This document shows, piece after piece, positions 20,388 through 54,543 of a stretch of 64,000 nt of DNA. A model generated the notes under the pieces. That model searched no databases. It was not told the origin of the DNA and saw nothing but the letters and a program-made list of their open reading frames with translations. A program made the position numbers and the translations under genes. Location: the NCBI GenBank assembly GCA_964035015.1, contig CAXIUP010000152.1, positions 21,001 to 85,000 on the forward strand, given 5' to 3'. The stretch comes from Corallium rubrum. Lineage: Eukaryota; Cnidaria; Anthozoa; Scleralcyonacea; Coralliidae. The number at the start of each line of letters is the position of its first letter. Position 1 is the stretch's first letter.

Positions 20388-21084
20388 GTTACTGACCAAG
20401 CGTGAGGTCTGTACTACAAGTGAAATATCGGACCGATGTTTTTTTAGTTCGGACCAAGACGAGCGCAGCGAGTTGAGGTTTGAGCAAAAAAACAGAGGTC
20501 CGATATTTCACTAGTACAGGCCAAACAAGCGAGGTCAATAAGTAGTTTATTATATGGCCATAAATATTGTGAACGTTCTGTGAAAACTCGACTCATCTTT
20601 CTTGGAAAATGGCAGACATTTTCCCATTTTTAAAGTACTTTCCGTTGAGCTAGAATCCTGAACTCAAGATCGTACGTTAAGTAGTTGAATAAAAAATAAT
20701 CTGAAATTCTAATACTTGTTATGTTATATGTTATATATTAATGTTATACTAATTATTACGAACAATGTTACCAAAGTTTTGGACATTTTAAAAACTTTCA
20801 CAAAACGTGGAAACTTGAACTATATACATCAAATGAAAGCTTATAAAATTTCTAACAACATACTTGGACGATATATGTCAACAATGAGTATACGTAATTC
20901 TGAAATTATAATTGCATATACTGACATGACTGCCATTTTGTTTATAAACCTTATGGTCCCGAACGGCAGATTCCGCTCTGAGGTTGCGGATACGGGAAGT
21001 ATCGGACCGCTTATGAACCAATCATCAAATTACTGGATTCAGTTCGCGTATTCGGACCTCTCAGCGCTGCTGCCATATAATAAA
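20388..21084 (-). mobile_element. Non-autonomous hairpin element NA1, related to the tyrosine-recombinase element
   Basis: Terminal inverted repeats TTTATTATATGGC lie at 20546-20558 and, inverted, at 21072-21084. Outside the first of these is an imperfect long hairpin, about 20388-20541, whose loop includes GAGCGCAGCGAG. Read on the minus strand, the far end shows GAGAGGTCCG, then TGATTGGTT and AAGCGGTCCG, in the same order and spacing as the left end of the element at 47084. The 9-mer TATCGGACC in the subterminal region (21000-21008) recurs in the hairpin stem (20426-20434 and inverted at 20497-20505). No recombinase ORF is present. Confidence 0.65.
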
Positions 21085-21139
21085 ATACTAGAAATACATA
21101 AACACGACCCCTCGCCCGCTTTTAATACATTAAATATAC

Positions 21140-21205
21140 ATAAATACCCTCCCCCCCCCCCAACCCCAACCCCCCCCCCCCCCCACCCCCCGCCCGCCCC
21201 CCGAT
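21140..21205. repeat. C-rich tract
   Basis: Almost pure C with a few A and G; the complementary strand could form G-quadruplexes. Confidence 0.9.
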
Positions 21206-21209
21206 TAAA

Positions 21210-21660
21210 ATAAGCACCTGATCTGTTTTTGTATACAAATATAAACCTCTGGCCTCCTTTACATCCTGTTTACCTTTATGAATGTAGTTTTTCTATTATT
21301 GACAAATTTCCATAGCAATGTTTTATTCCAAAACGGTTATTGAGCACCCAACTCTTTGTATTCGTATTTTTGAAATCGAATAATAGGTATATTAATATAC
21401 AGATCTTCTCCATTATTGACCTTGTTTGGGTTAATCGTGATTACGTGTCTTGTTCGTTGCCCTTTGATAGAGGACATTTTAACCCTTTGTAACCTGAACA
21501 CGACTTACTTTTATTTATACTCTGGCTAACGCCAGACGATTTTACTCGTCAAAGGGAAAGCTCCAGGCTTTAAAGGGTTAAAAATTATCTCGTTAACGAC
21601 CCTTTGAGATCTGAGCACACGGCTTTTATTATTTTACTCCCAGTACAGGAGGAGAGCTAA
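21210..21660. other. Non-coding spacer with a dispersed repeat fragment
   Basis: It holds a copy of the GGCTAACGCCAGACGATTTT motif (about 21520-21580) related to the repeats near 4050-4213. Nothing else was recognised. Confidence 0.45.
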
Positions 21661-21714
21661 TATATGAGACCAATGAGATTAACGATATGGCAAGCACTTC
21701 CTTTCTAGAAGGCG

Positions 21715-21995
21715 TTGGGCCCCAGAAAGCTCGGGGGCCCCAAAAGCACGAGGCCCCCCAAAACCACGGGGGCCCGCAAAAAAGCGTGGGACCCCTAAAA
21801 AGCGCGGGGCCCCAAAAATGCGCGGGGGCCCCAAAAAACGCAGGGTCCCAAAAAACGCGGGGCCCCAAAAAAGCGCGGGGCCCCCCAAAAGCGCGGACCC
21901 CCCAAAAACGCAGCCCCCCAAAAAAACGCGCCCCCCCAAAAAAACACACAACGTGAGGCACCTAAAAAGCGCGGGGCCCCTAAAAAGCGCAGGGA
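21715..21995. repeat. Short-unit GC-rich minisatellite
   Basis: Units of roughly 16-22 bp with the pattern GGGGCCCCAAAAAAGCGC are repeated about 14 times with variable G/C and A runs. Both strands give open Gly/Phe- or Lys/Pro-rich frames that I regard as by-products. Confidence 0.85.
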
Positions 21996-22017
21996 TTCAG
22001 CAAATTACAATCAAAAT

Positions 22018-22127
22018 AATAAACTGTGAAGAAGTTAGACGCGTGCGTCAACGAAATCACTGTTACGATGAGTCAGGATCAGCGTCTGAATTGCCGCAGA
22101 CTCCAACCGACAAGTTTCATACGGGGG
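22018..22127 (+). pseudogene. hAT transposase relic, left part (before the BEL insertion)
   Basis: The frame CEEVRRVRQRNHCYDESG through PQTPTDKFHTG resembles the region before the C-terminal dimerisation domain of TTF/ZMYM-type hAT transposases. It is interrupted at 22127 by the BEL/Pao element and continues at 28290 on the same strand. Both ends are decayed. Confidence 0.5.
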
Positions 22128-22348
22128 TGTGTAAAACGTACACTACTAGACAATCTTCGTTTAAACTTTAATCAGACAACTTCGAGAATTACATCATCAT
22201 CAGACCACATCAGACTATAACATCAGACTACATCAGACTACATCAGACTACATTCAAGTTCTCAATAACAGAGTTCAGTTCGAGGAAGACCTCTTCCAGG
22301 AATTTAATCACGTGATGTCAATAATAAACTAGGATCCAGTTCTCAACA
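22128..22348 (-). repeat. BEL/Pao 3' LTR
   Basis: 221 bp, identical to 28069-28289. It contains several tandem CATCAGACTA units (read on the plus strand). Confidence 0.95.
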
Positions 22349-22408
22349 CACTCCCCGGCCTTGATTGATATTATCAATCTAGTTTGGTGTTCAAAAATCG
22401 TAACAAAA

Positions 22409-25400
22409 CTATTGACAAACTAGAATCATCCTAATCATAACATGCAAAAACTTAATCAAAACGTCAGTACTCATCTTAATGTTCTCGACAACATGCGGTA
22501 TATCTTCGTCCTTTACTATTTTAATAGGAATGTTCACTCCTTGTGCCACAGGAATGTCAGGTTTGGTATGTTGCTCCACTTCCAAGGGGTACAACCTTTG
22601 CAAAGGACGTCTAAATTCAGCTGTAGGGGAGTTACCCGCTTTCACTCTTACTACAGCACTTCGGACATGACCATCACGTCCGGGGAGTAAGCGTTCGACC
22701 TTTCCCAGGCGCCACCTTTGTCTTGGGATCTTATGATCGTGTAGACATACTATATCTCCCACTCTCACCTTACGGAGTGAATTTGCTCTCTTGGAATACC
22801 GATGATGTTCACGAAGTTCTGTTAGATACTCGGCTCGCCAACGATTCCAGAAGTGATCAAGGGTTCGTTGCAAGAACTTTACTCTCCTTGTGATTGTTCC
22901 TTCATTTACATCTTCGTTGAAAGAGCTCTTTGCTGGAACGGATAGAATTCTGCGGCCAACGATCAAATGGGAAGGCGTCAACGGTTCTTCCATTTCGTCA
23001 TAAACATACGTTAAGGGTCGCGAATTCAATACAGCTTCAACTTCGACCAAACTGGTAGACATTTCATCGTAGTCCAATCGAGCATTTCGTAGACACTTCT
23101 TCAGACATAACTTCACTGACTTGACAAGTCGCTCGAAAAAACCACCCCACCATGGGGCTGCTTCGACATTGAACTTCCACTCTGTACCATCACGTTGACA
23201 AAAGGTCTGCACCTTTTCGTCCTTAAAAGTTTTCCCGTTGTCGCTGACAATCAAGGTAGGTGTCCCTCGTCTTCCTTTAAAGCGCATCAGAGCTCTTATA
23301 AAACTTTCTCCACTCAGATTAGGTACTAGTTCCAGATGGACGGCACGGGTTGTAGCACATGTAAACAAAGCTATATAAGCTTTCTTCGCTTCTCCTTTCT
23401 TTGAGAATACGTCCGTGACATAGAGAGGACCAGCGAAATCTACGCCTACTCGAGTGAACGCAAACTCGTCGCTTAACCGAAAATCAGGAAGTGGCGAAGG
23501 AGGAGGAACAGCATAGCTTCTTCCTTCGATCTTCTTACAAACTGAACATATTTTTATCACCGTCCTTACAGCTAGTCTTCCTTTGGGCACCCAAAATCTT
23601 GACCTAAGCTCAGTAAGTGTATCTCTCACGCCGTTGTGCATGACTTTCTTGTGACAATCCTCGATGACCAAGTGTGTAAAGCGAGAACATCTTGGAAGAA
23701 ATATCGGAAAACGACCAGCATACGGGATTGGCGCGTTTTCAAGGCGTCCTCCACATCTCAGGATACCTTTCTCATCTGCGTACAGTTGCAATGAGACTTT
23801 CACCTGACCAAACTTCTTATCTTCAAGCACAGTTCTTTGTACTTCCCTGTACCAAAGTTCTCTTGCTTGGTCGAGTTCTGATTGATTAACTTCTCCAAGG
23901 ATCAACTCCTTTCTTGCTTTACTTAGCTTGAGGTTAGATACAAATCGCAAGACGTATGAAGTGACTCGTATCAGTCGCCGTAGACTACCAAATCTTTCCA
24001 AGGAAATGAGACATTCGAGATTTAACTTCCTTCTTGACGTTTTTTCAGAGACAATGTTCAGAACTGTACTGTTCTGCTGCTTCTTCAAGCTGCTTGACTT
24101 TTCCTTCTTCAACTCGAGACGGGGATCTGAATCATCATTTGCGACTTCCATCGAATTTCCTTGAATACTTGGCCAGAATTCGTTGCTTTTTAGAAGAAAC
24201 TCTGGACCATTCCACCACACGTGGTTGGTAATTAGCTTCGAAGCCATCGATCCACGAGAACAGATATCAGCTGGATTCAATTCCGAGGGACAATAGTTCC
24301 ATTGTGCTGGCTTTACAAGCCGACGAATCTCCACGACTCTATTCTGTACAAACTGCTTGAATTCTTTCTTCATCCCCCATATCCACCACAAGGCAATTTG
24401 TGAGTCTAACCAGCAGAAAATAGAATCAATCTTTAACGTTCTGTCAAATGCTGTTAAGACACTGCTCATCAGTCGGGCTAGAATGAGGGCGCTCAATAGC
24501 TCAAGGCGAGGTATGGTGTCCCCATTCACTGGTGCAACACGAGTCTTTGAAGACACAATTTGAGTGAAGACAGCTCCAGATTTCAGTTCAACACGTAGGT
24601 AGACAACCGCTCCATATGCCTTTTCCGATGCATCAGCGAATCCGTGGAGTTGAACACTTCGTAACTCTGCTAGTGATGAATTGCAGAAGTAATGTCTCTT
24701 CAGCTCCAAGACTCCGACGTTCTTCATGTCTTGGACGAGCTTCAACCACCTTTCATGAAGGAATGAATCAACAGGGCCATCCCAGTCCACTTTCGATTTG
24801 CAAATAGATTGGAAGATAATCTTCAGAAGAACGATAACAGGGCTCAGAAATCCCAGAGGATCGTACAGCTTGCTTGTTGTACCAAGAATAACTCTCTTTG
24901 TGACTGGAACATCACTGATGTTTCCCAATGGCGAAGCTAGGTCGAAAAACAATAAGTCTTTCTGATTATCCCATCCTACTCCAAGGACCTTCAACTTTGC
25001 TGTGTCAGGCTTCCTTGCTGATTCGAATAGTGAGCTTGAGAAGGTTTGATCTTCTTCCTGAATTCCTTGGACTTCCACAGACGTACTTGAATATTCAGTA
25101 TCTTCGGACTGACTTTCGCTGACTTTCTGCTGACGTTCGACTTCTTCGATTCTTTCTTGTAGAACTGCTGAGTTGGAAGACCATTTTCGCATATTGAAAC
25201 CTCCGTTGTTGAATGAGGATTTCAGATTCTTGTACATCTCGAAGACGGACTCGTTGGAATCATCTCCACTTACAAAATCATCCACATACAGACTTTTCAA
25301 CACTTTCTCAGCAAACTCTCTGGGGGTATCAGTAGAGGTAAGGTGATGACGAATCGTGGCGTTTAATAGGAATGGGCTGGACGAGATACCAAAGGCAACT

Positions 25401-27973
25401 CTTGCAAATCTGTATACTTGAAGATTTGGGTGTTCTCTTGAGGCATCATCAACCCACAGAAAGCGTAGATAGTCACGGTCTCTTGGATCAACTGAAACAT
25501 TCAAAAAGGCTTTCTCAATGTCTCCTATGATGGCAGTTCTATGGATGCGAAACCTCAGGAGGATATCATAAATGAGTGGAGACAGAGGTGGACCTGCATA
25601 GAGACAGTCATTGAGACTTGGTGTGTTTCTTCCTGACTGAGCGCTAGCATCATAAACAACACGCAGCTTTGTGGTTTCTTTGTCAACACGGATCACTTCG
25701 TGGTGAGGGATATAGTGGACCTTGCCCACACCATTGTTGATACTTTGCTCCACTGGCTCAATAATTCCTTGTTCACGTTGTTCTTGAATGACATCATTGT
25801 ATTGCCTTGCTACTTCAGGGTTTGACCCCAGACGCTTCAGGAGTGATGCAAGTCTTGATTTACACAGGGCAAAATTATCTGGAAGCAGTTCATGGTCCTC
25901 TTTGAAGGGTAACCGTACTTGATATCTTCCTTCCACAAATTCAACTTCATCAATAAACTTGTCATACAGAGAGGAGTTCTGGTCCTGGATTCCAAGAGAT
26001 TCATAGTCCCAAAATTTCTTTACTTCGGAGGTTAATGCATCTTCTTTAACGATGCTTGATTCCACTTTGAGAACGTGAGTTGCAGTGAGGTTCACAGAGT
26101 AGCCATCCTTATCCTCTGGTCTGACCATGGTGGGTCCAGATAAGACATATCCCAATTTAGTCGCTAGGGCAACTGGTTCACTTGGGGCACCTCTGATCAC
26201 GGTACCTTCAACCAAGGACCAGTAGTAGTCAGCACCAATGAGGATACTAACTGTCCGATCTCTTACACCTGCCCATTCTGCCAATGGAAGACCGCGTAAG
26301 TGCTCATAGGTACACTGAGTAAGTTCTGCAGGAGGTTGAGTAGGTGGACCACATATCACCGGTACTACATACACCTGAACATACACAGTTTCTCCAAATG
26401 CTGTCTTGATACCAACTTGAACAATCTCACATGAACGTAGCCTAGCATCAGACTCTCCAAACGTTTTTATCAGAAGTGAATCTTTACCAATCACTCGTAA
26501 CGCCAATTTGTTCTTGAGGTTTTCTGTGATGTAAGATCTTTGACTGCACGAATCAAAGACTAGACGAACACTTCTTGAATAGCTTTCATCATCTGGACGT
26601 ATCACATCAGCAGTTGCAGTCTGAAGCAAAACTGATCCTCTCAATTCTTCACCACAGTACGCACTGGTTGTAGTTTGGGCAGATTGTTCCTCACCTGGTT
26701 CCTGAGTGTCCCTGGGTTGTTCCGAGTTGTTACAAATTGATACATGGTGAGCCTTATGACATCTGAAGCATTTTACAGGACTTTGACAGTCACGTGATAA
26801 ATGTCCACTTCTCAAGCAGAGAAAACACCTTCCCTTTTTCTTGAGAATTTGCTTTCTCGACTCAGGAGTTGTTACAACATTGCACTTAGTGCTTCGATGG
26901 TCTCCATTACAGAATGAACACCATACACGGGAACCTTGAGGATTTTTAGAGTTATCCGAGTATAAGGCTGCTGTAGAATAGGATGACTCACCTCTCTGAC
27001 GACCTGAGCCAGGTAGCTTCAAATCCTTCGATTCTTTGGTGTTAAGCAAACACTGTTCTCTCAATTGTAGTTCCTTGTGAAACTCACTCAGAATATCCTT
27101 CAGTTCCCACGTATCAGATCCCAGATTGCGTGTAATTGCGATTCGGAACTCCTCAGGTAATTTCTGAAGAATGATGGGTGTCAAGAAGCAACCATACATC
27201 TCTGGGGAAATTTCCACACTTTCCAGACCACGTACATGGGATTCCACTAGGTCGTACAAGTTTCGTAGTCGCTTCACATCACCAATCTCTGTTATCTTAG
27301 GAATTTTGGTGAGTGCTTCCATATGGCTGGAGATCACAATTTGACGATTTCCAAATCTTTTCTTGAGCAATTCAACTGCCTTGTCGTAATTTGCACTCGT
27401 CAGCGCTAAACCAGTGATGACACTTTGAGCCGTTCCCATAAGAAGTGATTTTAAATAATTAAATTTATCCACAGCTGATAGATTTGGATTCTTGTGAACT
27501 GCTGACTCGAAAGACTCCCAAAATGGGTACCATTCGATGGGATTTCCATGGAATTTCTTCAGTTCTAGCTTCGGTAGCCTTGCGTGAGCTTGAACTTTTG
27601 GCAGTTGACTTGAAGATGTTCCCATGGCTTGTACATTCAATTGCTGACCTTTCGCTCGTGTTTCTTCTGCTACCAATAAAGCTTCCAATTCGACAATACA
27701 CTCCTGAATGGCACTGGTAAAGTCACAACTCTCTGACACTTCTTCGTCAATCTTTGAGTCATCTTCCAACAGTTCGACTACATCACGATCCAACACTTGA
27801 AGCTCCGAACTCTTGCTTTGAAGTGTGGTACGAAGGAGCTTTAACTTCTTTAACTCGACAAGATTTTCTCCAGCGATCAATTCTTTAGCGTTATCGATTG
27901 TTTTCCGGACAAAACTGCGATGACCATCGCGATATTTAAGCAATTTCTTCAATTTCTTCTTCTTTTCCGACAT
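22409..27973 (-). CDS. BEL/Pao gag-pol polyprotein (1854 aa)
   Basis: Order of parts: a coiled, Lys/Glu-rich N-terminus; a DUF1759-type Gag region from about 135 (KLELKKFHGNPIEWYPFW); three zinc knuckles around 350-415 (CSFCNGDHRSTKC, CFLCLRSGHLSRDC, CFRCHKAHHVSIC); an A17-type aspartic protease with VFDSCSQRSYI; reverse transcriptase with the YVDD box at residues 896-899; RNase H (HGFADASEKAYGAVVY, CWLDSQIALWW); an integrase HHCC finger (HKKVMHNG, CSVCKK); an integrase core (GVDFAGPLY, VSDNGKTF, WWGGFFERLVKSVK); and a C-terminal DUF5641-type domain (FWNRWRAEYLTEL). Gag and Pol are in one frame, as usual for BEL/Pao. The frame has no stops, so it is probably functional. There is no env-like ORF. 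It replicates through an RNA intermediate in cytoplasmic particles, by family knowledge. Confidence 0.95.
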   Translation of the reverse strand: MSEKKKKLKKLLKYRDGHRSFVRKTIDNAKELIAGENLVELKKLKLLRTTLQSKSSELQVLDRDVVELLEDDSKIDEEVSESCDFTSAIQECIVELEALLVAEETRAKGQQLNVQAMGTSSSQLPKVQAHARLPKLELKKFHGNPIEWYPFWESFESAVHKNPNLSAVDKFNYLKSLLMGTAQSVITGLALTSANYDKAVELLKKRFGNRQIVISSHMEALTKIPKITEIGDVKRLRNLYDLVESHVRGLESVEISPEMYGCFLTPIILQKLPEEFRIAITRNLGSDTWELKDILSEFHKELQLREQCLLNTKESKDLKLPGSGRQRGESSYSTAALYSDNSKNPQGSRVWCSFCNGDHRSTKCNVVTTPESRKQILKKKGRCFLCLRSGHLSRDCQSPVKCFRCHKAHHVSICNNSEQPRDTQEPGEEQSAQTTTSAYCGEELRGSVLLQTATADVIRPDDESYSRSVRLVFDSCSQRSYITENLKNKLALRVIGKDSLLIKTFGESDARLRSCEIVQVGIKTAFGETVYVQVYVVPVICGPPTQPPAELTQCTYEHLRGLPLAEWAGVRDRTVSILIGADYYWSLVEGTVIRGAPSEPVALATKLGYVLSGPTMVRPEDKDGYSVNLTATHVLKVESSIVKEDALTSEVKKFWDYESLGIQDQNSSLYDKFIDEVEFVEGRYQVRLPFKEDHELLPDNFALCKSRLASLLKRLGSNPEVARQYNDVIQEQREQGIIEPVEQSINNGVGKVHYIPHHEVIRVDKETTKLRVVYDASAQSGRNTPSLNDCLYAGPPLSPLIYDILLRFRIHRTAIIGDIEKAFLNVSVDPRDRDYLRFLWVDDASREHPNLQVYRFARVAFGISSSPFLLNATIRHHLTSTDTPREFAEKVLKSLYVDDFVSGDDSNESVFEMYKNLKSSFNNGGFNMRKWSSNSAVLQERIEEVERQQKVSESQSEDTEYSSTSVEVQGIQEEDQTFSSSLFESARKPDTAKLKVLGVGWDNQKDLLFFDLASPLGNISDVPVTKRVILGTTSKLYDPLGFLSPVIVLLKIIFQSICKSKVDWDGPVDSFLHERWLKLVQDMKNVGVLELKRHYFCNSSLAELRSVQLHGFADASEKAYGAVVYLRVELKSGAVFTQIVSSKTRVAPVNGDTIPRLELLSALILARLMSSVLTAFDRTLKIDSIFCWLDSQIALWWIWGMKKEFKQFVQNRVVEIRRLVKPAQWNYCPSELNPADICSRGSMASKLITNHVWWNGPEFLLKSNEFWPSIQGNSMEVANDDSDPRLELKKEKSSSLKKQQNSTVLNIVSEKTSRRKLNLECLISLERFGSLRRLIRVTSYVLRFVSNLKLSKARKELILGEVNQSELDQARELWYREVQRTVLEDKKFGQVKVSLQLYADEKGILRCGGRLENAPIPYAGRFPIFLPRCSRFTHLVIEDCHKKVMHNGVRDTLTELRSRFWVPKGRLAVRTVIKICSVCKKIEGRSYAVPPPSPLPDFRLSDEFAFTRVGVDFAGPLYVTDVFSKKGEAKKAYIALFTCATTRAVHLELVPNLSGESFIRALMRFKGRRGTPTLIVSDNGKTFKDEKVQTFCQRDGTEWKFNVEAAPWWGGFFERLVKSVKLCLKKCLRNARLDYDEMSTSLVEVEAVLNSRPLTYVYDEMEEPLTPSHLIVGRRILSVPAKSSFNEDVNEGTITRRVKFLQRTLDHFWNRWRAEYLTELREHHRYSKRANSLRKVRVGDIVCLHDHKIPRQRWRLGKVERLLPGRDGHVRSAVVRVKAGNSPTAEFRRPLQRLYPLEVEQHTKPDIPVAQGVNIPIKIVKDEDIPHVVENIKMSTDVLIKFLHVMIRMILVCQ

Positions 27974-29010: not shown

Positions 29011-31172
29011 CTAATAAAAATCGTTGCCGCTTTCTCTGGTCGTTCGCAAGGTTTTCTTGGCTTGCTTTACAGCGGATTCAGCCTTGCCATTGGACTGAGG
29101 ATGGTGTGGACTGGTGCGCGTGTGCTTAAACCCGTACGCTTGTGCAAAATCTCGAAATTCTTCACAGTCGAATTGTGGCCCGTTGTCGGACACCAGTTCA
29201 TCTGGTACCCCGTATCGAGCTATGTGTCCTTTCAGCTTCTTTACGACTGTTTCGGAGGTTGTGCTGTACACGCGGTCTACTTCAAAGAAATTTGAATAAT
29301 AGTCCACCGTCACAAGATATTCCTTGTTTTCAAGTTGAAAGAGATCTGTGGCGATCTTTGCCCAAGGGCGGTCAGGTACCTCGTGATTAAAAAGCGGTTC
29401 TTTCTGCTGCCGAGTGGAAAACGTCATGCAGGTTTCACATCTGGAGATGTATTCTTTCACTTCGCTATTCATGTTGGGCCAGTAAATGCTTTCTCGCGCT
29501 CTTCTCAAGGTTGACTCTATTCCTTGGTGCGCTCTGTGCAGATCCTCCATGGTTTCTCTCCTGAGGGTTTTTGGAATGACAACCATGTCGCCACGCAGGA
29601 TGAGGCCATCTTGTACAACTAATTCATCTCGGATATGGAAGTAGTTGCTTACGGTTGGACGCAACCCATTCTTGCTCTCTGGCCACCCGATCTGGATGAT
29701 TGTTTTGACTGCCTGTAGGACTTCATCCTTGTCCGTTTCAACCTTCAGCCTGGACATCTTCTCTTCAGATGCTATCATCTGATTGATTTCGTTGATCACT
29801 GGAACGTGCTCTATTTCTTCCTCGAACTCTGATCTTGTTGGCTGACCTTCTCCCGTGTCAAAATGTCGGCTGAGAGTGTCAGCAAGGTACATCTCGGATC
29901 CCTTCTTGTACTGGATGTCGATATCATATCGCTGCAGTCGCATGAACATCTTCTGAAGGCGTCTTGGCGCTGAGACCAGGGGCTTTCCAAATATCGTTTC
30001 TAGAGGTTTGTGATCTGAATCCACGACGACTTTTCTCCCGTACGTGTATTGATGGAACCGTTCCACCCCAAAAACAATGGCCAAAAGTTCCTTTTCAATT
30101 TGAGCGTAGTTGGTTTCTGTGGTTGTAAGAGATCTGCTCGCATAAGCGATTGGTTTCCCTTCTTGCAATAATGACACGCCCAGGCCTTTCTCGCTTGCAT
30201 CGCATTGTAGCCGCAGAGGTTTCTCAGGTGCGTAGTACTTCAACAGAGGTGGTTTTGAGACGAGTACCTTGATGTCATTGAATGCGTTGTCGTGAATTTC
30301 TGACCAATGAAATTCGTGCCCTTTTCTTGTCAGTTGGCGTAGCGGTTCTGATACATCTGAAAATTTCGGAAGGAATTTTGCAAGATAGTTTGTCATCCCC
30401 AAGATTCGCCTCACTCCTTGTACGTCTTGTGGTTTTGTCATATGTAGTATCGCTTCTACCTTGGATGGGTCTGCCTGTACTCCATCTGCGGTGAGCAAAT
30501 GACCAATGTATGGCATAGATGCTTTCTTGAGCTCAATCTTTGACTCGTTTAGCTTGATTCCTCTTTCGCGACACCGTCTTAGCAGAGCCTCTAGCTTGGC
30601 GTCGTGGTCTTTGACTGCTTCATCCATTGACGTTCCATTTCCAATAATGAGGATGTCGTCTGCCACCGTCCTCACCCCATCGAGTCCTTCGATGGCTTGG
30701 TCCAGGCGCCTTTGGAAGATCTCTCCTGTTGGTGAGATTCCAAAGGGCATCCTGGTCCATTTGTAACGGCCAAACGGAGTGTTAAACGTGGTTAACAGAG
30801 ACGATTCTTGATCCAGTTTAATCTGCCAGTAGCCATTCTTGCAGTCCACCTTGGTAAACACCTTCGCGTTGGTCAAATCTGGGAGGACTTCTTCAATCGT
30901 TGGAATTGGGTAATGGCACCTCTTTAATGCTTTATTTAGTGGTTGTGGGTCAAGGCAAAGTCGTATTTTGCAATTGCTCTTCTTGTTGACTACAATTGAG
31001 CTCACCCAGTCAGTGGGTTTCACGACCTTCTGGATAATACCTTGTTGCTCAAGCTCACTTAGATGATCTTTCAGCGGTTTCCGGAGAGCTTCAGGTATTC
31101 TTCTGGGTGGTATCTGGACTGGCTTGACCATATCATCTACTTCCAGATGTAGAGCTTCTCCAAGTTCACGAG
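29011..31172 (-). pseudogene. Ty3-type reverse transcriptase, RNase H and integrase (copy B, pol part)
   Basis: The frame covers RT (KVDCKNGYWQIKL, RMPFGISPTGEIFQRRLDQ, VADDILIIG in place of the usual YxDD), RNase H (LQCDASEKGLGVSLLQ, DSDHKPLETI), an integrase zinc finger (HQGIESTLRRARE, CETCM) and the integrase core up to VSDNGPQFDCEEF and SNGKAESAVKQAKK. It stops at 29011 just after the core Glu; the rest of integrase is missing and only a tail-like piece follows. A 1-base deletion near 31172 separates it from the gag-protease frame upstream. No LTRs were found, so the copy is dead and truncated at both ends. Confidence 0.85.
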
Positions 31173-32155
31173 ACCTTGGAATACGTCTGCATATTTGGCC
31201 AATACATCTTCTTTGGTCATGTTACTCGTGCTCTGGCTATCCACCACTTGAACGTCATTCGTGCTGGGTAGTAGGTTTTCGTGCTTGACTTGTATTAGAT
31301 TCATTTGTTGCGCTGCTCGGCTCCCGAGAAGATTGATGTCGGCATCTGTGTCTTTCACCACAACGAATTTCACTTTATATTTCTGTCCGTTTTTCGGGTT
31401 TGTAAGCTGAACGTGACATATTCCAGCGGGTTTTAGTGGTGATGAATTGTACATCTTTAATACTTTGTTTGTGTTTGAGACATTCCTTTCATACTTGGTA
31501 CCACGCAGTTCTCCACTTCGGATCACATTACACGTCGCCCCGGTGTCCACTTGAAAACTCGTGTTATGTCCACCTTTGATTTTCATTGTTGCGTGGATTT
31601 TTGACCGAAATTGTTCGCTTTTTACGACCAGAACTTCTTCAGGTTGTGGATGCAGGTCTAGAGTCGATACGGATTCCCCAGAGTCATCATCTGAGCTGTT
31701 TGGGCGAGTGTATTGCGTTACCATGTTTGCTGGCGAGTGCTTCGAATTCTTCGGTAAACAAACCTGCGAGAAATGATTCTGTCTACCGCAATTCTTGCAT
31801 GTTTGGCCATAAGCTGGGCAAGCGCCTCGTCGGTGACTACCGCCGCAGTATTTGCAAGGGCGTCTTGTATCCCTTGGCTTTCGTTGCCTTTCGTTTTCCG
31901 TCTTTCTGTTTTGTCGTAGCGCATTTACTTCTTCGTCATTTCCCGAGGGCTTCTTTAATTCTTTGAGGCGCATATTTGTCGTTTCGCCGCTTCTTCCGAT
32001 GTCTATGGCACGCGAGAGCGTAAGTTTCTTTTCTTGTAGTAATTTCTTTCTGGTTGACTCATCTCTGATTCCTAATACAAGTCTACCCCTAATCAGCGAG
32101 TCGTTAAGACAATTGCAAAAATAGGCACGCAAATGCGTACATGCGTCTACGTTTA
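31137..32155 (-). pseudogene. Ty3-type gag C-terminus and protease (copy B)
   Basis: The frame begins inside Gag (LNDSLIRGRLVLGIRDES), continues to a zinc knuckle (CKNCGRQNHFSQVC) and an aspartic protease (FQVDTGATCNVI with D-T-G, later INLLGSRAA), and ends out of frame with the RT segment. The formal frame continues upstream to 32294, but the residues before about 32155 come from a neighbouring inverted-repeat element, so the Gag N-terminus has been lost. Confidence 0.8.
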
Positions 32156-32917
32156 ATGCATCTATCATCGGCTTCCCCCTGGGGCTGATCCCCAGGGACC
32201 CAGGGGGATTTGTCCAAGAGTCCATTACAATCACAAGAAATACCCCAGGGTACAGGGCATGATCTATTGGGAAAAAATTGGAAGAAGCCCCCACCCTGGG
32301 TACAAGATTCTGTGTGACTTGAATATTTTAAGAGAAATCACATTTTTCATAAATAAAAAAAGGACAATTTGTTATATTATGATAGTATTGTTTTAGCCAA
32401 TTGATGCCCTTGACCAATTTCAAGAAATATAAACTAGTTGTAATAACAGTTTACAGTACAACCATTATATGACCATTAATGTTTAATAATATGCGAATAT
32501 ATATTAATATATGTTAAAATATGGCAAATATTATTCGAACTGAATTTCAATGACAATATAATCATGCATATCTTTGCTAACAAATTCCTCAGTTGAATTT
32601 GCCCCTTCTGCTAATGGTAGCGACCACTGACATGTGGGTATACTATATTATAAAATACTCTTGAAATAGCCCACTGTCGAAACCTTGAAAAAATGCTCCC
32701 AAAATGCAGGAAATCCCACCATGATAACACCAACCACTGACCACTCAAGACAAAACCCCCGGGGTCTTATACCCGTGGGTAATATACGATTGAGCAAAAT
32801 GTTGCCAATTCCCCACAGCCTGGGAGAACAAGGAAAGGTAAAAAATCAACAAAAGCCCCTGGATTCCCAGGGGTTCCCCAGGGGTCAGCCCCAGGGGGAA
32901 GCCGATGATAGATGCAT
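32156..32917. mobile_element. Inverted-repeat element (762 bp) replacing the 5' part of the Ty3 copy
   Basis: The ends are inverted copies beginning ATGCATCTATCATCGGCTTC and continuing CCCCTGGGGCTGA (left 32156 on, right ending at 32917). The paired part is about 40-70 bp with mismatches. The interior is non-coding. A clean target duplication is not evident. Confidence 0.65.
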
Positions 32918-36900: not shown

Positions 36901-37709
36901 ATGATATTGCTGATGGGTTGCATTTAATTGAGTCACTAAAAAATTTAGCAATTTCAATCAGGAATAGTATTGACACTTTTCACACTAAATGGTATGCTAA
37001 GGCTTTAGATTTAGCTGGTAAAGTTAACGTTGATGAAGTGAAACCTAGGACATGTAATCGTCAAATCAATAGAAGTAATGTTCCTGCAGAGTCTGTCTCT
37101 GATTATTTTAAGAAATCCCTTACCATTCCCCTAGCTGATCATTTGTATACAGAGTTAATAAACAGATTTGACACAGCTTCAACCAATGCCTATTATGGTT
37201 TGTACATCATCCCTTCTAAAATGATTTGGTCACTATCCAGTCCTGAAAAGGTGGATTGGAAAGGGAAATTTTCATTGTTTTCATCTCTTTATTTGGATGA
37301 TCTTCCCAATCCTCTAGCATTAGATGGTGAACTTGAACTCTGGGAGAAGTATTGGGAGACTAAGACTACATGCCATCCTGACAATATATCTTCCACATTG
37401 AAAGATATTAACTTTCCTGGCTTTGAAAACATCAAAGTGTTACTGAGAATTTTAGCAACTATTCCAGTAACGTCTTGTGAATGTGAGAGAACATTCTCAG
37501 CTTTAAGAAGACTTAAAGATTACACCCGAAATAACATGGTTGCTGATCGGTTGAATGGGCTTGCTTTATTGTATGTACATCAGGAAATTCACCCTGATAT
37601 TCAAAGAGTCATTGATTGTTTGGTAGTGACAAAAGAAGGATTGCATTACTTTAAGTTAAAAAGAAAAGTTAGGTTATATGTATTTAAAAAAAAGTTTAAA
37701 AAAAGTTAA
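33943..37709 (+). CDS. OTU-hAT fusion transposase (2 exons, ~1141 aa)
   Basis: Exon 1 is 33943-34157 (donor GTAAGA) and exon 2 is 34499-37709 (acceptor TTTTCTAG); the join is in phase (AG+A gives Arg72). Across the join lies an OTU-like protease core, DATGNCMYSSVSLL with the putative nucleophile Cys79, and LFKHNHYVPLI with His245. A Ser/Thr-rich linker follows (about 250-400). Then comes a TTF/ZMYM-type zinc finger region (SWLCYSPSLDGGFCLPCVLF), the hAT catalytic core with ADEAADCSNKEQMSLVLRF (first Asp), QGYDGAGAVSGCVKGLS (second Asp), THCFSHGLNLSICG and CRTRWVERI, and the C-terminal dimerisation block ATIPVTSCECERTFSALRRL. There are no stops or frameshifts. The start at 33943 is the first Met of exon 1. 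The OTU activity is inferred from the Cys/His motifs only. Confidence 0.85.
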
Positions 37710-43500: not shown

Positions 43501-43705
43501 TTTTCTCGTCCATTTCTGCTCTGATTTCGCTGTCCTTGGCACACAACGTTCTATAATCTATATAGTCCCCCAAATACATTGCCCTTTTCGAAATTCTCCT
43601 GCGCTACAAAAAAATGTGCTTAAAAGAATCCATTCTTCTCACAAGCAAAATGCTGAAGCCTACCACATTTCCCATGATGCTTTGCTATAATGGGAATTGT
43701 CTATT
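40561..43705. mobile_element. Large fold-back element with ~0.95-kb inverted arms
   Basis: The left arm (about 40561-41525) and right arm (about 42752-43705) are near-identical inverted copies; for example, the same short frames occur at 40748-40999 (+) and 43293-43544 (-), and at 40963-41151 (-) and 43135-43329 (+). The left arm has an extra ~32 bp (40614-40645, containing AAATGGCCGCC). Inside, 41539-41584 and 42056-42100 form a second inverted pair (CTTGGCACCACCCCTGGT). The middle has G-rich tracts at 42280-42310 and 42697-42712 and several GGGTGCTTAC repeats. No transposase is seen and no target duplication was found. Confidence 0.75.
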
Positions 43706-45408: not shown

Positions 45409-45742
45409 CACAGAATAGAAAGACAACCAGAAGTCCGACTCGCGTCGGAACCTTTGAAGTTTATGTCCTCGCGCATGTCGCCTCGCGCATCTTGATTCCT
45501 CGCCATCCTACGCCATCCTACGCCATCCTACGCCATCCTACGCCATCCTGGCAAGTTCCCCCGGCAGTTTGGACCTTCAAAAGAAGGTTAAAACTGCCGG
45601 GGAAACTTGCCAGGATTGCGTAGGATGGCGTAGAAATTGCGTAGGATCGCGTAGGATGGCGTAAAATATCGCGCATGCGCATTGAAGAAATGCGGACAAG
45701 TTTTCACTCGAGTCGGACTTCTGGTTTTCTTACTATTCTGTG
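45409..45742. repeat. Fold-back element with short central gap
   Basis: The outer ends CACAGAATAG and its complement frame arms of about 160 bp (45409-45575 and 45580-45742). They include CCAGAAGTCCGACTCG at both ends and GCCGG near the centre. The left arm contains five tandem CGCCATCCTA decamers (45503-45550), matched on the right by fewer GTAGGATGGC copies. Confidence 0.75.
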
Positions 45743-45745
45743 ACA

Positions 45746-47083: not shown

Positions 47084-47276
47084 ATTTATTATATGGCAAG
47101 TGTTTCTGAGCGGTCCATCTACCAAAATAGAGCATTTTGATTGGTTCTTGAGCGGTCGGAAACCAACAGTACGGACCGCTCAGGTTTGGCGGGAAATTTT
47201 GGATTTTAAATCTTTGACAAGTTTTTTTATATCTTTTTAAAAAAATTCTGTTTTGTGAAACGGCTTTAAGTTTGAA

Positions 47277-48680
47277 ATGTCTGAGAGTGAGGAGGACCCA
47301 AATGTTTTTTATTATCCGGAAGAAGATAATGTTTTGGGAAGTTTAAACGAAACAAACACTGAAGAAATCCGCGACGTCAACACAAACATGAATGAATTCA
47401 GCAATTTTATCGCCGACCAACAGCCAAAAAGTACAAAACAGAAGACAAAGTACGATTTACAAACTTGGTATAACTTTTGTGAACAAAAAAACGAGATGAG
47501 AAAAGTAGAAGATATACCTTTTGAACAGTTGAACCTTCTCCTTTGCTCATTCTTCAAAGATGTAACGAAAAAAAATGGCGAAGTCTACGAACCCTTAACT
47601 TTGACTTCTTTTCAACGAAGTATCCAACGGTATCTCAACAGCAAGGGATCTACGGCAAACTTGCTGAAGGGGGATGAATTTAAACTGTCCCGAAAAGTCC
47701 TAAAGTCGAAGAAAAAGAAGCTGGTCGTCGACCACGGAAAAGGGAACCGTCCAAAAGCCACTCGAGTATTGAGCGAGGTCGAGGAAGGCAAGCTTTTTGC
47801 CGAAGGAGAGTTTGGTTCTCAAAATCCCGTTGCTTTACAGCGCACTGTTTGGTGGTTGTTGGCTTTGCATTTCGGGTTCAGAGCCAGAGATGAGTCTCGA
47901 CGTCTTCTGTGGGGTGACGTTTCGTTGGAAAACGACCCTGAAACTGGCAACGAAATCCTTGTTTGGAAAGCAGAAAGAGGATCCAAAACTCGCCATGGCC
48001 AAGACGAGTCTTCTGGACGTCGTGCGTTTTATCCCGCTGCCCAAGCAACTGGCAATGAACGCTGCCCGGTGATGTATTATAAAATGTTCAAAAGCCACCG
48101 TCCTTTGCTAATGAATCAGCCTGAATCTCCTTTCTACTTGGCCATCAAACACCAGCGAAATCCAAATGATAACATTTGGTACAAGAGATCCCCATTTGGA
48201 AAGAATGAAATCGGCAAGCTGCTCTCGAAAGCTGCTCAAAACTCTGGTCTGCCTGGACGAGTTACCAATCATTCCGTTCGCAAAACCTGTATCTCAAGGC
48301 TTCTAGATTCAGATGTACCTGTCAACTTTGTTGCTCAGTTAAGTGGTCATCACAACCTGAAAAGTCTCGATGCGTACAAATCAGCGTCAACCCAACGCCA
48401 GCGAAAGATGTCATTTGCACTAAGTCGCACGGAAAACACCGAGCCATCAACTGTCAGCTCAAGTTCCACCATGAGTTCGGTCGTAGATATCCAACACAAA
48501 CCAAACCAAAGCATCACAAAAAATGTAGAAGAAGCTGGTATTTTCCATGGGGCTACGTTTGAAAACTGCTCTTTCAATATCCAGGTTATGAGCGGCCCAG
48601 TTACTCAAACGCCTTCGAAAACTGAATGCATCCGCAAGCGGCGCCGGCTGTTTATTGAATCCGACAGCGAAGACGAATAA
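47277..48680 (+). CDS. Crypton-type tyrosine recombinase (467 aa)
   Basis: A 467-residue intronless ORF with an acidic N-terminus. A core-binding-like helical domain spans about 55-150 (YDLQTWYNFCEQKN, EPLTLTSFQRSIQRYLNSKG) and a tyrosine-recombinase catalytic domain about 160-375. Catalytic pattern: Arg in LHFGFRARDESRRL (202-204), H-x-x-R in TNHSVRKT (His332, Arg335), Gly-His at 357-358 and the nucleophile Tyr367 in LKSLDAYKS. The same domain (DUF3504) was domesticated in animal QRICH1, ZMYM and KCTD1-type genes, which derive from Cryptons. The C-terminal tail is Ser-rich and ends in a basic then acidic patch (KRRRLFIESDSEDE). The frame is intact and centred between the TIRs, so it is probably the element's integrase. 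Confidence 0.88.
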   Translation: MSESEEDPNVFYYPEEDNVLGSLNETNTEEIRDVNTNMNEFSNFIADQQPKSTKQKTKYDLQTWYNFCEQKNEMRKVEDIPFEQLNLLLCSFFKDVTKKNGEVYEPLTLTSFQRSIQRYLNSKGSTANLLKGDEFKLSRKVLKSKKKKLVVDHGKGNRPKATRVLSEVEEGKLFAEGEFGSQNPVALQRTVWWLLALHFGFRARDESRRLLWGDVSLENDPETGNEILVWKAERGSKTRHGQDESSGRRAFYPAAQATGNERCPVMYYKMFKSHRPLLMNQPESPFYLAIKHQRNPNDNIWYKRSPFGKNEIGKLLSKAAQNSGLPGRVTNHSVRKTCISRLLDSDVPVNFVAQLSGHHNLKSLDAYKSASTQRQRKMSFALSRTENTEPSTVSSSSTMSSVVDIQHKPNQSITKNVEEAGIFHGATFENCSFNIQVMSGPVTQTPSKTECIRKRRRLFIESDSEDE

Positions 48681-48919
48681 ATTAAAAGCATTTTTGAACA
48701 TTTTGTTCTTTTTTTTGGTAGCCAATAACATTTTAGAGAACAATTTTTTAGCTGGCTTCCTTCGCTGTTTTTAAATTAATTAACCATTTACCGGCTTTAT
48801 TGACAATGTTGAATTTTTGTAAACAAGTTCTGTTTTTATTAAATATCATTTAAGAAGCAATTTAAATTCCTGTTTTTGCTTTTGCCATATAATAAATAGC
48901 TTATTGACTGAGCTTGTTC

Positions 48920-49044
48920 GGTCCGTACAGGAGGATACTGCACGGTCTCGTTCTTTTTTCGCTTGTTTGTGGACCTCGCCTACGGCTCGGTCCACAAACA
49001 AGCGAAAAAAGAACGAGACCGTGCAGTATCCTCCTGTACGGACC
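48920..49044. repeat. Perfect 56-bp-stem hairpin
   Basis: Left arm 48920-48975, loop 48976-48988 (TCGCCTACGGCTC), right arm 48989-49044. I checked all 56 positions by eye and found no mismatch. Confidence 0.93.
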
Positions 49045-49059
49045 TCTCGCTCAGTCAAT

Positions 49060-49840
49060 TACATATATATCACATTGTATTTTTTACAGGAAGTGAAGAA
49101 ATACAGTACAGATGTAAGTGTTGGAAGAACTTACTTTGGAGACTGAGTGCCCAGGCACGAGCACCAATCTGAACTGGATTTTTACAATGATAAATTGATG
49201 GATTCTCTTTTACTAAATAACATTCAAATAATATGTAGTTTGAAGTTTTGCATGTTGTCATGTTGTATAATTACGTAAGGCAATGCATAATAAATGTGGA
49301 CGTAATTAATAAAATTTTAACACAGAAGTATTATCTCGCATATTATTATACAATCCAAATGCTATTATTCATCCCTTTGCCTTTGAGTGCTATGAACTAT
49401 GTCTAAGACAGATACCCTTGGGCTGGACATTGTCTGTCTTATAGTTCATTCATATGTCTACCTTAATACAGTAACTTTTCTGATGCCATCTCTAAATGGC
49501 CAAAGTTGATGTTTTCTTGGTGGTGGTGGTGGTGGTGGTGGTGGGGGTGGGGGGGGGTGGGGGGTGCTTCACTGCAAAAATGTTGGACCAATGTTAAAAT
49601 GGTAACAATGCCCCTGATTGAATAGAAGTGACCAAAATCAATATTGAGACAAACATTTTAATTTTATTCAAGTTCCTTATTTACATATATATTGAGGATA
49701 CAGGAAATACCCTTTATTTGATAAAATAGAAATATTTGACCAGTCCAGTCATATACCAAATTTATCAATAGATTCTGGAGGCAATCCCATAAATTATCCC
49801 GATTTTTCATTCACCTTAATTATAAAGAAAAATACATATA
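49060..49840. other. Non-coding spacer with (GGT)n tract
   Basis: No gene is seen. A (GGT)n tract grading into G-rich sequence lies at about 49518-49566. Confidence 0.6.
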
Positions 49841-50959
49841 TGTTATTTACCGGCTGGGAGGTCCGTATAGAGAAATATTTCCCGAGGTCTCAAAAACTGC
49901 CCGAGGCCGCAGGCCGAGGGTCGTTTTTGAGACCGAGGGAAATATTTCTCTATACGGACCGACCAAAACGGTAAATAACATATTTGTTTTTTTTATTAAT
50001 CGTACGATTTATAATTCACATAATTAAGTAAATTAACATAATTAATTGCGTAATCGACGTGACATTCACGTGATATTCAAAAGTCCAAAGTTTATCGTTC
50101 GACAGTAAACAACTGCCGACATGCAGTCTGACAGGGAAGCTTGGAACGTCTTTTGTGATAAAAAAACAGTCAAAACTTGAAGATCCAGTGCTTTTAAAGT
50201 TTAGTTGATAAAGATTCTTCGCCTTCTTCGTCGCTTGCTCGTTTTTGGCTGTTCGTTTGAAAAATCGTTTTCAATACTCGGCTGACTGCATGGAAATTGA
50301 AAGGAGTGGGTCGTTCGAGTTTGAAGACGAAAATGCTTGTAGGAAGCCATTTGAAACTTTTTTCAAAGACATGACACGATACGAGGTTGGCATGTGGAAA
50401 ATATTTGACTAAAGGGTAAAGACTTGTAGCGGTTTTGTTGTTGGACAACAGAAGAATGACAGTTTAGTATCAAAAGGTTTCAGCTTTTCTGTCCTCTCGT
50501 GGTATGTTTTTTTAATATATACTTCTATATAGTTTCATTTAGTGATTCAAAATACTGTGTTCACAAGTTTATGTATGTTTTGCCTATTGTTTTAAACTGT
50601 TTTCATACGTCGTTGAGCAATAATACTTTAAAACTTTATAAATGTCGCTGGCTGAAATTTTGCTTTTTCACGGCATTCTCGCTTTCTTTTAAAATTCGCT
50701 GTTTTCACACGAAGTTGTCAAAGCGATTTGGATAATAAAACTCATTTGTATCCCCGTAGCTCTCTGTTGAATATATTTTTTTCTGTGGCAAGCGAAATAG
50801 TTATGAAAATCGATCAATTTTACGGCCTATAAAACACATTAAAAAATTATCTCGAGCGGTCCGTACGGGCTCATACGGACCGCTCGTTAACCAATCAGAA
50901 AGCAGGATTTGGTAGGATACGGACCGAAAAAAAATAAAAGATTGTTATTGAATAATAAA
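49841..50959 (-). mobile_element. Non-autonomous hairpin element NA2
   Basis: A long hairpin (arms about 49841-49900 and 49922-49980, loop with CGAGGCCGCAGGCCGAGG) is followed by TTTATTAATC (49992-50001). An inverted TTTATTATTC-type end is at 50950-50959. Read on the minus strand, the far end has CGGTCCGTATCC, ACCAAA, TCTGATTGGTT and GAGCGGTCCGTA as in the autonomous element. ATACGGACC occurs in the subterminal region (50873-50881, 50916-50924) and in the hairpin stem (49952-49960 and inverted at 49860-49868). An 84-codon minus-strand frame (50194-50448) has no recognisable domain and may be a fossil of cargo. Confidence 0.65.
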
Positions 50960-52410: not shown

Positions 52411-52559
52411 ATTCCCAGCGCTGAGAGTCCTCAATTCTCATTGTTATGCACAATGATATATCTGTGTCTCGTTCTACACTTTGAGCCTATATCCTGTTAC
52501 AAAGATTAGCCCCGTATATTAACACAAATATTAACACAAATATTAACACCTATCGTGAC

Positions 52560-52618
52560 ACCATCCCCCCCCCCCCCCAAAAAAAAACCCAACAAAAAAA
52601 ACCCCCAAAAAACACACC
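52560..52618. repeat. C-run/A-run low-complexity tract
   Basis: About 15 C followed by A-rich sequence with C interruptions. Confidence 0.85.
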
Positions 52619-52780
52619 ACTGAGTGTTTATAGTTCTGACCACAGAATAACAATCCAACATTTGTATTTCTTTGTGAAATTACAGAATAAATAAACAAAT
52701 ATGCTTAACAGAATACTAGTGTTACTGTATTAGAATTTAGAAATGCTCTGCAAATATGAAATATCTATTCTGCCATTTTT

Positions 52781-52924
52781 ATGATTAGCAGGTACTGTAC
52801 TTTACTATTAAAATCCCATCAAAAGCACAGCTAGCGTATATGTAAATAATACTGCTCGGATTCATACAAATAGTACGAGCACAGAAATATAAATAAAATA
52901 ATCACCATCAAATAGATTATGAAC

Positions 52925-52976
<52 letters not shown>

Positions 52977-53118
52977 GATTAGCAGGTACTGTACTTTACT
53001 ATTAAAGTCCCATCAAAAGCACAGCTAACGTACATGTAAATAATACTGCTCGGATTCATACAAATAGTACGAGCACAGAAATATAAATAAAATAATCACC
53101 ATCAAATAGATTATGAAC

Positions 53119-53171
<53 letters not shown>
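52781..53171. repeat. Two tandem copies of a 194-bp unit ending in (AT)n
   Basis: ATGATTAGCAGGTACTGTAC starts at 52781 and again at 52975. The copies differ at only a few positions and each ends in a long (TA)n tract. Confidence 0.9.
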
Positions 53172-53175
<4 letters not shown>

Positions 53176-53181
53176 GAACAA

Positions 53182-53559
53182 TTTTAAACTGTAGCGTTTG
53201 ATCTTACCAAGTTGTGAGGATAAGAGTTCCGTTTCCCGTAATTCTGACTTACATTTTTCGGTGATACACTGTATTTTGCCAATATACTAATTTTGATCTC
53301 TAATAGTCATAGTGTAACCCAAGGCTACATAAAGTACTTCCAATATTTTTTTCATTTTTTGCTGGGCAGTTTGTTAGGAGGCTCCGTCCGACGATGATAC
53401 AGTAAATAGCAAAATACATGTATGACAGTATGAGTATATATGACAGGACATTTGACAGGACACGCTATAGGAATAATGCGTAGGAGTAGGACGAAGTCTT
53501 TTAATAGGGGAAATACATGCTGTTTTAAGTGGAAAATATATTGATGGTATATGTATTAA

Positions 53560-53601
<42 letters not shown>

Positions 53602-53991
53602 TTAATACATATACCATCAATATATTTTCCACTTAAAACAGCATGTATTTCCCCTATTAAAAGACTTCGTCCTACTCCTACGCATTATTCCTATAGCGTG
53701 TCCTGTCAAATGTCCTGTCATATATACTCATACTGTCATACATGTATTTTGCTATTTACTGTATCATCGTCGGACGGGGCCTCCTAACAAACTGCCCAGC
53801 AAAAAATGAAAAAAAATATTGGAAGTACTTTATATAGCCTTGGGTTACACTATGACTATTAGAGATCAAAATTAGTATATTGGCAAAATACAGTGTATCA
53901 CCGAAAAATGTAAGTCAGAATTACGGGAAACGGAACTCTTATCCTCACAACTTGGTAAGATCAAAAGCATTAAATTCGTACAGTTTAAAAT
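53182..53991. repeat. Long near-perfect palindrome centred on (TA)n
   Basis: Arms of about 375 bp (53182-53560 and 53602-53991) are inverted copies with only a handful of differences (for example GGCTCCGTCC against GGCCCCGTCC). The centre is about 40 bp of TA. The palindrome starts right after the 194-bp tandem pair. No ORF is present. Confidence 0.9.
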
Positions 53992-54272
53992 GCCATCTTT
54001 TTTTGGTGTTTAAATCAATTAAATGTCAATTGAGTTGACAACTTTAATAAAACAATTTTTTGAATGTAAATTATTCAATAATAGTGGCATACCGCATGTA
54101 TATACCGCATACAGTAGATTTCCATCACACTGTGGAATCTTTATGTGCACTTGATACTAGATCAGTGTCTAACCCCAGCATGTGTGTCCAGTGTCCGTCT
54201 TAGTCTCCTAGTTGTACATGCATGTACTTTGCCTCTTGTCCATTGAGTTCAGCGTAAATAGAGGATATTATA

Positions 54273-54543
54273 TTACACTGTGGCGCGAAGATATGAATTT
54301 TATCTTCGAGTGGGGGAAAACAATATTTTACGAATGAGCATAGCGAATGAGTAAAATATTGTTTTTGCCACGAGAAGATAAAATTCATATCTTCAAGGCA
54401 CCGTGTAATGTTCTTTTTATTATATAGATTCAATGCAAAAAGCGGGAAAATTCGAAATGACATCATCGATATCTTCACTAGTGAGGATATGGAAAATATG
54501 ACACTGTATATTTCCTAGTAAAACACTCGCATCTATATAATAA
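54273..54543 (-). mobile_element. Minimal non-autonomous hairpin element NA3
   Basis: A hairpin (about 54273-54330 with 54351-54409, few mismatches, loop with GAATGAGCATAGCGAATGAG) is followed by TTATTATATAGAT (54418-54430) and its inverted copy ATCTATATAATAA (54531-54543), only about 100 bp apart. ATATCTTC occurs in the interior (54469-54476) and in the stem (54387-54394 and inverted at 54287-54294). It has the same plan as the elements at 20388, 47084 and 49841, but a different stem sequence. Confidence 0.6.

Follow-up and report, generated by a model that had tools for sequence, protein, structure and literature searches.

Strand-biased terminal hairpins in four elements of a Corallium rubrum contig, one with a CryptonA-type tyrosine recombinase gene

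Four elements ending in a long hairpin, one of which carries an intact tyrosine recombinase gene, were analyzed in Corallium rubrum (Cnidaria, Anthozoa; assembly GCA_964035015.1, contig CAXIUP010000152.1). The stretch studied, referred to as the window, comprises positions 21,001 to 85,000 of the forward strand (64,000 nucleotides), and coordinates are those of the window. A first-pass annotation had assigned the elements, here E1 to E4, a common plan, and reading of the sequence found each of them no more than a few bases from the stated place and confirmed the plan: the body is flanked on each side by an inverted TTTATTATA-type repeat, and a long hairpin lies outside one repeat only. All four are described with the hairpin to the right, i.e. 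E1 on the plus strand and E2, E3 and E4 on the minus strand. The terminal inverted repeats (TIR) are designated TIR1 at the left end and TIR2 beside the hairpin. The features are as follows.

47085-49061, plus strand: E1, from TIR1 to the end of the hairpin
47085-47099, plus strand: TIR1 of E1, TTTATTATATGGCAA, presumed outer left end, where homology between E1 and E2 starts
47138-47146, plus strand: TGATTGGTT of E1, similar to a CCAAT box
47150-47181, plus strand: core-like site of E1, an inverted repeat of 12-base arms around 8 bases (12-8-12) with 10 of 12 arm positions matching, containing GTACGGACC
47277-48680, plus strand: intact open reading frame (ORF) of E1, 467 amino acids, CryptonA-type tyrosine recombinase according to domain matches, residues and structure model
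48882-48896, plus strand: TIR2 of E1, inner repeat with AATAAA at its end, left part of an inverted replica similar to an internal complementary region (ICR)
48897-48900, plus strand: 4-nucleotide spacer TAGC from TIR2 to the hairpin of E1, as read in the sequence
48901-49061, plus strand: terminal hairpin of E1, tip TC-GCC-TAC-GGC-TC at 48976-48988
21072-21084, minus strand: TIR1 of E2, left end
21003-21058, minus strand: left-end words GGTCCGAAT, TGATTGGTT and GCGGTCCGATA of E2
20546-20558, minus strand: TIR2 of E2, inner repeat, followed by a 4-nucleotide spacer at 20542-20545
20389-20541, minus strand: terminal hairpin of E2 with two TC/TC blocks, tip TC-GC-TGC-GC-TC at 20461-20471
50950-50959, minus strand: TIR1 of E3, TTTATTATTC
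50854-50885, minus strand: core-like site of E3, a perfect 12-8-12 inverted repeat, GAGCGGTCCGTA/TACGGACCGCTC
50654-50776, minus strand: probable vestige of a Crypton N-terminus (NEFYYP) in E3, according to position, strand and FYYP
49992-50001, minus strand: TIR2 of E3, TTTATTAATC
49834-49987, minus strand: terminal hairpin of E3 with three TC/TC blocks, tip at 49903-49917
54533-54544, minus strand: TIR1 of E4, ATTATTATATAG
54416-54427, minus strand: TIR2 of E4, TTTATTATATAG
54272-54409, minus strand: terminal hairpin of E4 with three TC/TC blocks, tip TC-GC-TAT-GC-TC at 54336-54346

The ORF is the single one of more than 100 amino acids listed for E1. Its domains are DUF3504, Phage_integrase and QRICH1, the catalytic set reads R202, H332, R335, H358 and Y367, with which the R-H-R-Y residues of tyrosine recombinases are present, and family matches were obtained to recombinase and DUF3504/QRICH1 only. 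No DDE transposase, reverse transcriptase, RNase H, methyltransferase or Rep/helicase domain was found in the ORF. Similar proteins are DUF3504/KIAA1958-like or cnidarian, and by these matches the recombinase is of the CryptonA type. Its fold is predicted to be Cre-like; the structure model used was built from 89 sequences (predicted template modelling score, pTM, 0.65), and an earlier one (18 sequences, pTM 0.34) was set aside. E3 probably retains a recombinase vestige at a similar place, the distance between the FYYP codons and the first base of TIR1 being 219 bases in E3 and 222 in E1; place, strand and the FYYP motif are the only reasons for which it was kept. No recombinase remnants were found in E2 or E4, and no recombinase relatives in viral contigs (protein and alignment searches) or genome contigs (alignment search).

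The two repeats of E1 match at 15 of 15 bases and those of E2 over 13. In E4 they comprise 13 bases, TTATTATATAGAT, the first of which differs, and in E3 only TTTATTA followed by two of three bases. The exact 12-mer TTTATTATATGG occurs four times in the 64 kb, namely as the inverted pairs of E1 and E2. Allowing up to two mismatches, 16 sites were counted against a chance mean of 12.9, and 16 was reached in 21 of 100 shuffles; since this is chance frequency, the repeats of E3 and E4 are identified by their context alone. The hairpin base is 4 to about 13 bases from the inner repeat in all four elements, and a hairpin is present on that side only. The homology of E1 and E2 extends from TIR1 to the outer edge of the hairpin (49062 and 20388), running through TIR2 into the hairpin. 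For this reason, TIR1 and the 3' stem arm were taken as the presumed outer ends. Two side observations concern the inner repeat and its spacer. TIR2 closes with AATAAA, a polyadenylation signal, before the hairpin in E1 to E4 (48891-48896 in E1). The tetranucleotide CTAC, in E2 orientation, is found at 20385-20388 and 20542-20545 and brackets the E2 hairpin like a 4-bp direct repeat; no such bracketing was seen in E1, E3 or E4.

For the stems, the 5' arm was aligned to the reverse complement of the 3' arm. This gave 15 ungapped two-base mismatches (1, 5, 4 and 5 in E1 to E4), nine of which are TC opposite TC (1, 2, 3 and 3). Their polarity is uniform: TC/TC sits in the strand reading from the left end to the hairpin, and the opposite strand has GA/GA. 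In E1 another TC/TC, additional to the one that was counted, lies within a ragged outer loop; in E3 a weaker palindrome extends the stem to 49823-49998 and reaches TIR2. Four control palindromes of the window contain 13 two-base mismatches, none of which is TC/TC. If every mismatch were equally likely (1 in 144), the P of this excess would be ~2e-16. The tip motif TC-G(G)C(C)-TNN-G(G)C(C)-TC, searched on both strands of the window, occurs four times, once per hairpin, and always on the strand running from left end to hairpin.

As a general rule GNA loops, like tandem GA mismatches, are stable in DNA. The complementary-strand triloops are GTA, GCA, GCA and ATA in E1 to E4, a GNA triloop closing three of the four. 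A known case is d(GCGAAGC), which forms a DNA hairpin of unusual stability; models of its GAA loop contain a sheared G-A pair (PMC6582339, PMC10527192). With DNA parameters, the GA strand was the more stable one in all four hairpins (GA versus TC strand: E1 -87.8 versus -86.6, E2 -38.7 versus -32.4, E3 -60.0 versus -58.8, E4 -42.4 versus -38.2 kcal/mol). When energies of tiny hairpins were calculated in nine contexts, GA/GA ranked 6 to 10 among the 144 mismatch choices and TC/TC 70 to 88.

TIR2 and the 5' arm, taken as the reverse complement, give 3'-arm sequence, spacer and TIR, which is the joint expected if the presumed outer ends were connected. The reverse-complement spacer is GCTA in E1 and GTAG in E2. 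In E1 this replica is complete, the only exceptions being the spacer and a ragged stretch of TC/GA; in E2 and E4 the agreement is interrupted by more mismatches. The joint replica is a reading of the element plan and not a second proof. It and the TC/TC pattern with its polarity are stronger features than the word sharing described next; neither of them, nor the recombinase gene, was part of the first-pass annotation.

That annotation had centred on a subterminal word repeated in the stem, and GTACGGACC, TATCGGACC, ATACGGACC and ATATCTTC were indeed recovered in both places of E1, E2, E3 and E4, respectively. The order GGTCC, TGATTGGTT, GAGCGGTC, claimed for three elements, was seen in E1 and E3; E2 has AAGCGGTC instead. 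The longest words common to a left end and its own hairpin have 10, 10, 11 and 9 bases (E1 to E4). Random 160-base stretches, which could overlap elements, did equally well or better in 136, 185, 43 and 607 of 3000 cases each for E1 to E4, the left end of E4 itself being 130 bases long. The window has 16 copies of GGTCCG, and 13 fall within the left ends and hairpins of E1 to E3, which make up 5.9% of the window (P for clustering ~5e-14). Thus the sharing between left end and stem in E1 to E3, with the common core GGTCCG, is real; the word of E4 is at chance level, and no match to its stem word was found in viral contigs.

The element-specific part of the sharing is suggestive only. The own pairing of left ends with hairpins was the best of 24 (score 40; next 39, 39 and 37), but the left end of E3 matches the E1 hairpin over 11 nucleotides and also holds the E1 form of the word, and the left end of E2 matches that hairpin over 10. 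A test on four elements cannot give a P below 1 in 24. The proposed diversification of specificity between lineages draws on three elements and is weakened by the cross-matches; most of the sharing can be attributed to a single ancestral word. The proposed site for a cognate protein at both ends has some support: a candidate protein is the E1 recombinase, and the left-end words of E1 and E3 lie in 12-8-12 repeats that may be its sites. Canonical tyrosine recombinase sites have arms of 9 to 13 bp around a centre of 6 to 8 bp (PMC2727003). A scan of the window for arms matching at ≥ 10 of 12 positions, GC ≥ 0.40 and spacers of 6 to 8 gave 14 sites, including those of E1 and E3 (E3 in two registers), and the E3 site was the only one with 12 of 12 among the sites listed. 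None was obtained in E4; the filter removed AT-rich sites and thus judged E4 unfairly.

At either end, some of the sequence may simply be gene signals. TGATTGGTT, which we take to be a CCAAT box, the motif of NF-Y, reads as an ordinary promoter element, and AATAAA is the corresponding signal at the other end. Eighteen stretches matching the left-end pattern (2 viral, 16 prokaryote) were tried as relatives. Neither the exact TIR 12-mer nor a hairpin with the tip motif was present in any of them, and the matches were taken as chance.

We tentatively read E1 to E3 as copies of a circle-forming CryptonA-type element that would use its folded GA strand as recombinase site, one copy being autonomous and the other two decayed or non-autonomous; we hold this interpretation to be possible without calling it probable. 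E2 is tied to E1 by its related left end. E4 is not tied to Cryptons; it follows the same plan but is regarded as more distant, and that it is an element of the same kind cannot be demonstrated. Excision by the recombinase would yield a circle in which TIR1, as the outer left end, is joined to the 3' stem arm, as the outer right end. There, TIR2, spacer, 5' arm, tip, 3' arm, spacer and TIR1 would form one long palindrome, of which the integrated form would be the version opened at one of two symmetric spacers. Such an opened circle accounts for repeats on both sides and a hairpin on one. The inner part (TIR2, spacer and 5' arm) would be a permanent inverted replica of the joint, like the ICR of DIRS elements. 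The TC/TC interruptions make the two strands unequal and have one polarity, from which we infer that one strand folds and is used: the GA strand, complement of the coding strand, would stack as tandem G-A pairs and fold out as single-stranded DNA, serving the recombinase as substrate in the manner of an integron attC site. The recombinase would recognize it together with a double-stranded site, the GGTCCG core next to the gene at the left end. The broader proposal, that a eukaryotic DNA transposon moves via a single-stranded folded site and links Cryptons, DIRS and attC, is doubtful in our view. Under it a Cre-like recombinase would read the GA strand, and the end architecture would belong to tyrosine recombinase transposons and would not have arisen with reverse transcription.

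CryptonA elements (PMC3212892) are likewise single-gene DNA transposons with a DUF3504-type tyrosine recombinase, of which cnidarian and non-autonomous copies are known; they differ from the present elements, which have inverted repeats of up to 15 nucleotides and a one-sided patterned hairpin. Kojima and Jurka 2011 (PMC3212892) state that animal Cryptons showed no terminal repeats, and a curation guide (PMC8969392) gives short direct repeats as the only terminal feature of Cryptons. Among the titles and abstracts listed in literature searches, which did not include Repbase Reports, none dealt with Crypton hairpins or ends of this kind; within that range the hairpin ending is new for the class, Cryptons themselves being known. 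DIRS1-like elements (PMC3266345) share the tyrosine recombinase and inverted terminal repeats. They carry a left and a right ICR near the right end, each inverse-complementary to its outer end, with a 3-bp circular junction, and the two regions are proposed to act in circle formation (PMC3266345). Given the presumed ends, such an internal copy of both outer ends exists in E1, E2 and E4 and in part in E3. Unlike DIRS1-like elements, the E1 ORF lacks reverse transcriptase, RNase H and methyltransferase, the repeats are far shorter, the right ICR and the right end fold as one hairpin with a 3-nucleotide tip, and the spacer has at least 4 nucleotides as opposed to a junction of 3 bp. The integron attI/attC system (PMC2727003) also combines a tyrosine recombinase, a palindromic site of little sequence conservation in which patterned unpaired bases distinguish the strands, and a double-stranded site beside the gene. 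A parallel to the one-strand recognition of attC is a possible reading of the sequence asymmetry and energies.

Several points weigh against the circle-forming Crypton interpretation. The DNA-level evidence comes from one 64-kb window with four elements and a single copy per family; the outer ends are thus presumed from one copy each, and no direct repeats flanking them were found by eye. Recognition of a hairpin or of single-stranded DNA by the recombinase is hypothetical. The TC/TC pattern was noticed before its test. The strand gap of 1.2 to 6.3 kcal/mol is matched by 0 to 9.6 in the four control palindromes, so its size is uninformative and only the common direction counts, weakly; the energy parameters do not separate a GNA triloop from its complement, and the triloop of E4 is ATA. 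The joint replica follows from complementary arms with a repeat beside the hairpin and is therefore not independent proof, and in E3 the hairpin part alone aligns, next to a spacer of 13 nucleotides. A profile built from 18 relatives did not list the E3 vestige with E values of up to 10 allowed, and its tblastn score, beaten by 1 of 56 stretches, is not above background. The 12-8-12 site of E1 is within background, with four other sites of ≥ 10 of 12 and spacer 8 in the window (0 to 2 such sites in each of six shuffles), and E2 has none in the filtered scan. Finally, the body of E4 between the repeats is an imperfect inverted repeat (64% over 128 bp), unlike that of E1 to E3.

The alternative that survives best is that the Crypton recombines at its outer ends in the ordinary double-stranded way, without any role for single-stranded DNA, and that the hairpin is just a cruciform-prone palindrome supplying paired recombinase sites. 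The Cre-like predicted fold, the canonical 12-8-12 site and the occurrence of the same word in stem and left end are all in line with it. It leaves unexplained, however, why stems of otherwise different sequence have TC/TC in one polarity and why TC/TC persists in near-perfect stems, and we consider it rather unlikely.

In Helitron2 (Helentron) elements the inverted repeats are asymmetric and 8 to 15 bp long; the left repeat is terminal and the right one lies just upstream of a terminal hairpin (PMC3627910). As their repeats are similarly short and asymmetric, with the right one subterminal before a hairpin, the layout fits rolling-circle elements supplied with Rep/helicase from elsewhere, one of which bears a Crypton gene as passenger, and this too counts against the Crypton interpretation. 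Single-stranded transposition, as in Helitron2 (PMC3627910), would suit a strand-biased hairpin, and the left 12-8-12 repeat could fold into a second one. Against this, the ORF of E1 has no Rep or helicase domain but encodes a tyrosine recombinase, the right hairpin has about 150 bases with patterned mismatches, and the right repeat is about 165 from the end as compared to about 20 to 30 bp in Helitron2. In addition, the recombinase starts at the same place in E1 and probably E3, which makes the gene look native, and left-end words reappear in the stem. A Helitron2 origin seems improbable.

Two further explanations are more improbable still. A hairpin serving gene ending or RNA processing, as transcription stop or RNA structure after AATAAA, would agree with the AATAAA that closes TIR2 in all four elements and lies downstream of the recombinase ORF in E1, but it explains neither TIR1 nor the word common to left end and stem, and hairpins are present at the outer end of E2 and E4, too, where there is no recombinase gene. 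The hairpins could also be separate palindromic elements or targets beside which TIR elements insert, and may have grown through nested insertions at TC that duplicated TC; direct TC...TC encloses several of the stem modules, and CTAC flanks the E2 hairpin on both sides. This is opposed by the TIR within about 13 nucleotides of all four tip-motif hairpins of the window, by the restriction of all four exact TIR 12-mers to E1 and E2, by the homology of E1 and E2 continuing through TIR2 into the hairpin, and by the two-base modules of E4, which cannot be insertions. Chance or an assembly artefact (AT-rich repeats, fold-back reads) is very improbable: the window does contain other palindromes, one of them nearly perfect (53194-53968), but the intact gene, the similarity of left ends and the patterned mismatches common to all four hairpins speak against it.

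How animal Cryptons recognize their ends and move is hardly known. Under the circle-forming Crypton interpretation the elements supply a strand-biased hairpin and a likely core site, and their presumed ends predict a circle junction; with these, tests of excision, of circle formation and of the use of a single strand come within reach. If general, the joint replica would bear on the origin of the odd ends of DIRS retrotransposons and on the DNA bound by the recombinase ancestors of human ZMYM2, QRICH1 and KIAA1958.

Other features were recorded in the window. A large inverted repeat at 40645-43654, with arms of about 0.9 kb that are 97-100% complementary in pieces and about 1.2 kb apart, is possibly a fold-back element. 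The sequence at 53194-53968 is a nearly perfect 775-bp palindrome around a TA run and is either recent or an assembly fold-back. At 45425-45726 there is a long hairpin whose arms contain CCTACGCCAT-type tandem units and which has no TC/TC blocks. Among coding regions, a BEL/Pao polyprotein ORF of 1854 amino acids (22409-27973, minus strand), two Gypsy-like pol regions (29011-32294, minus strand; 57246-60514, plus strand) and a hAT-like ORF with DUF4371 and a dimerisation domain (34473-37709, plus strand) were found.

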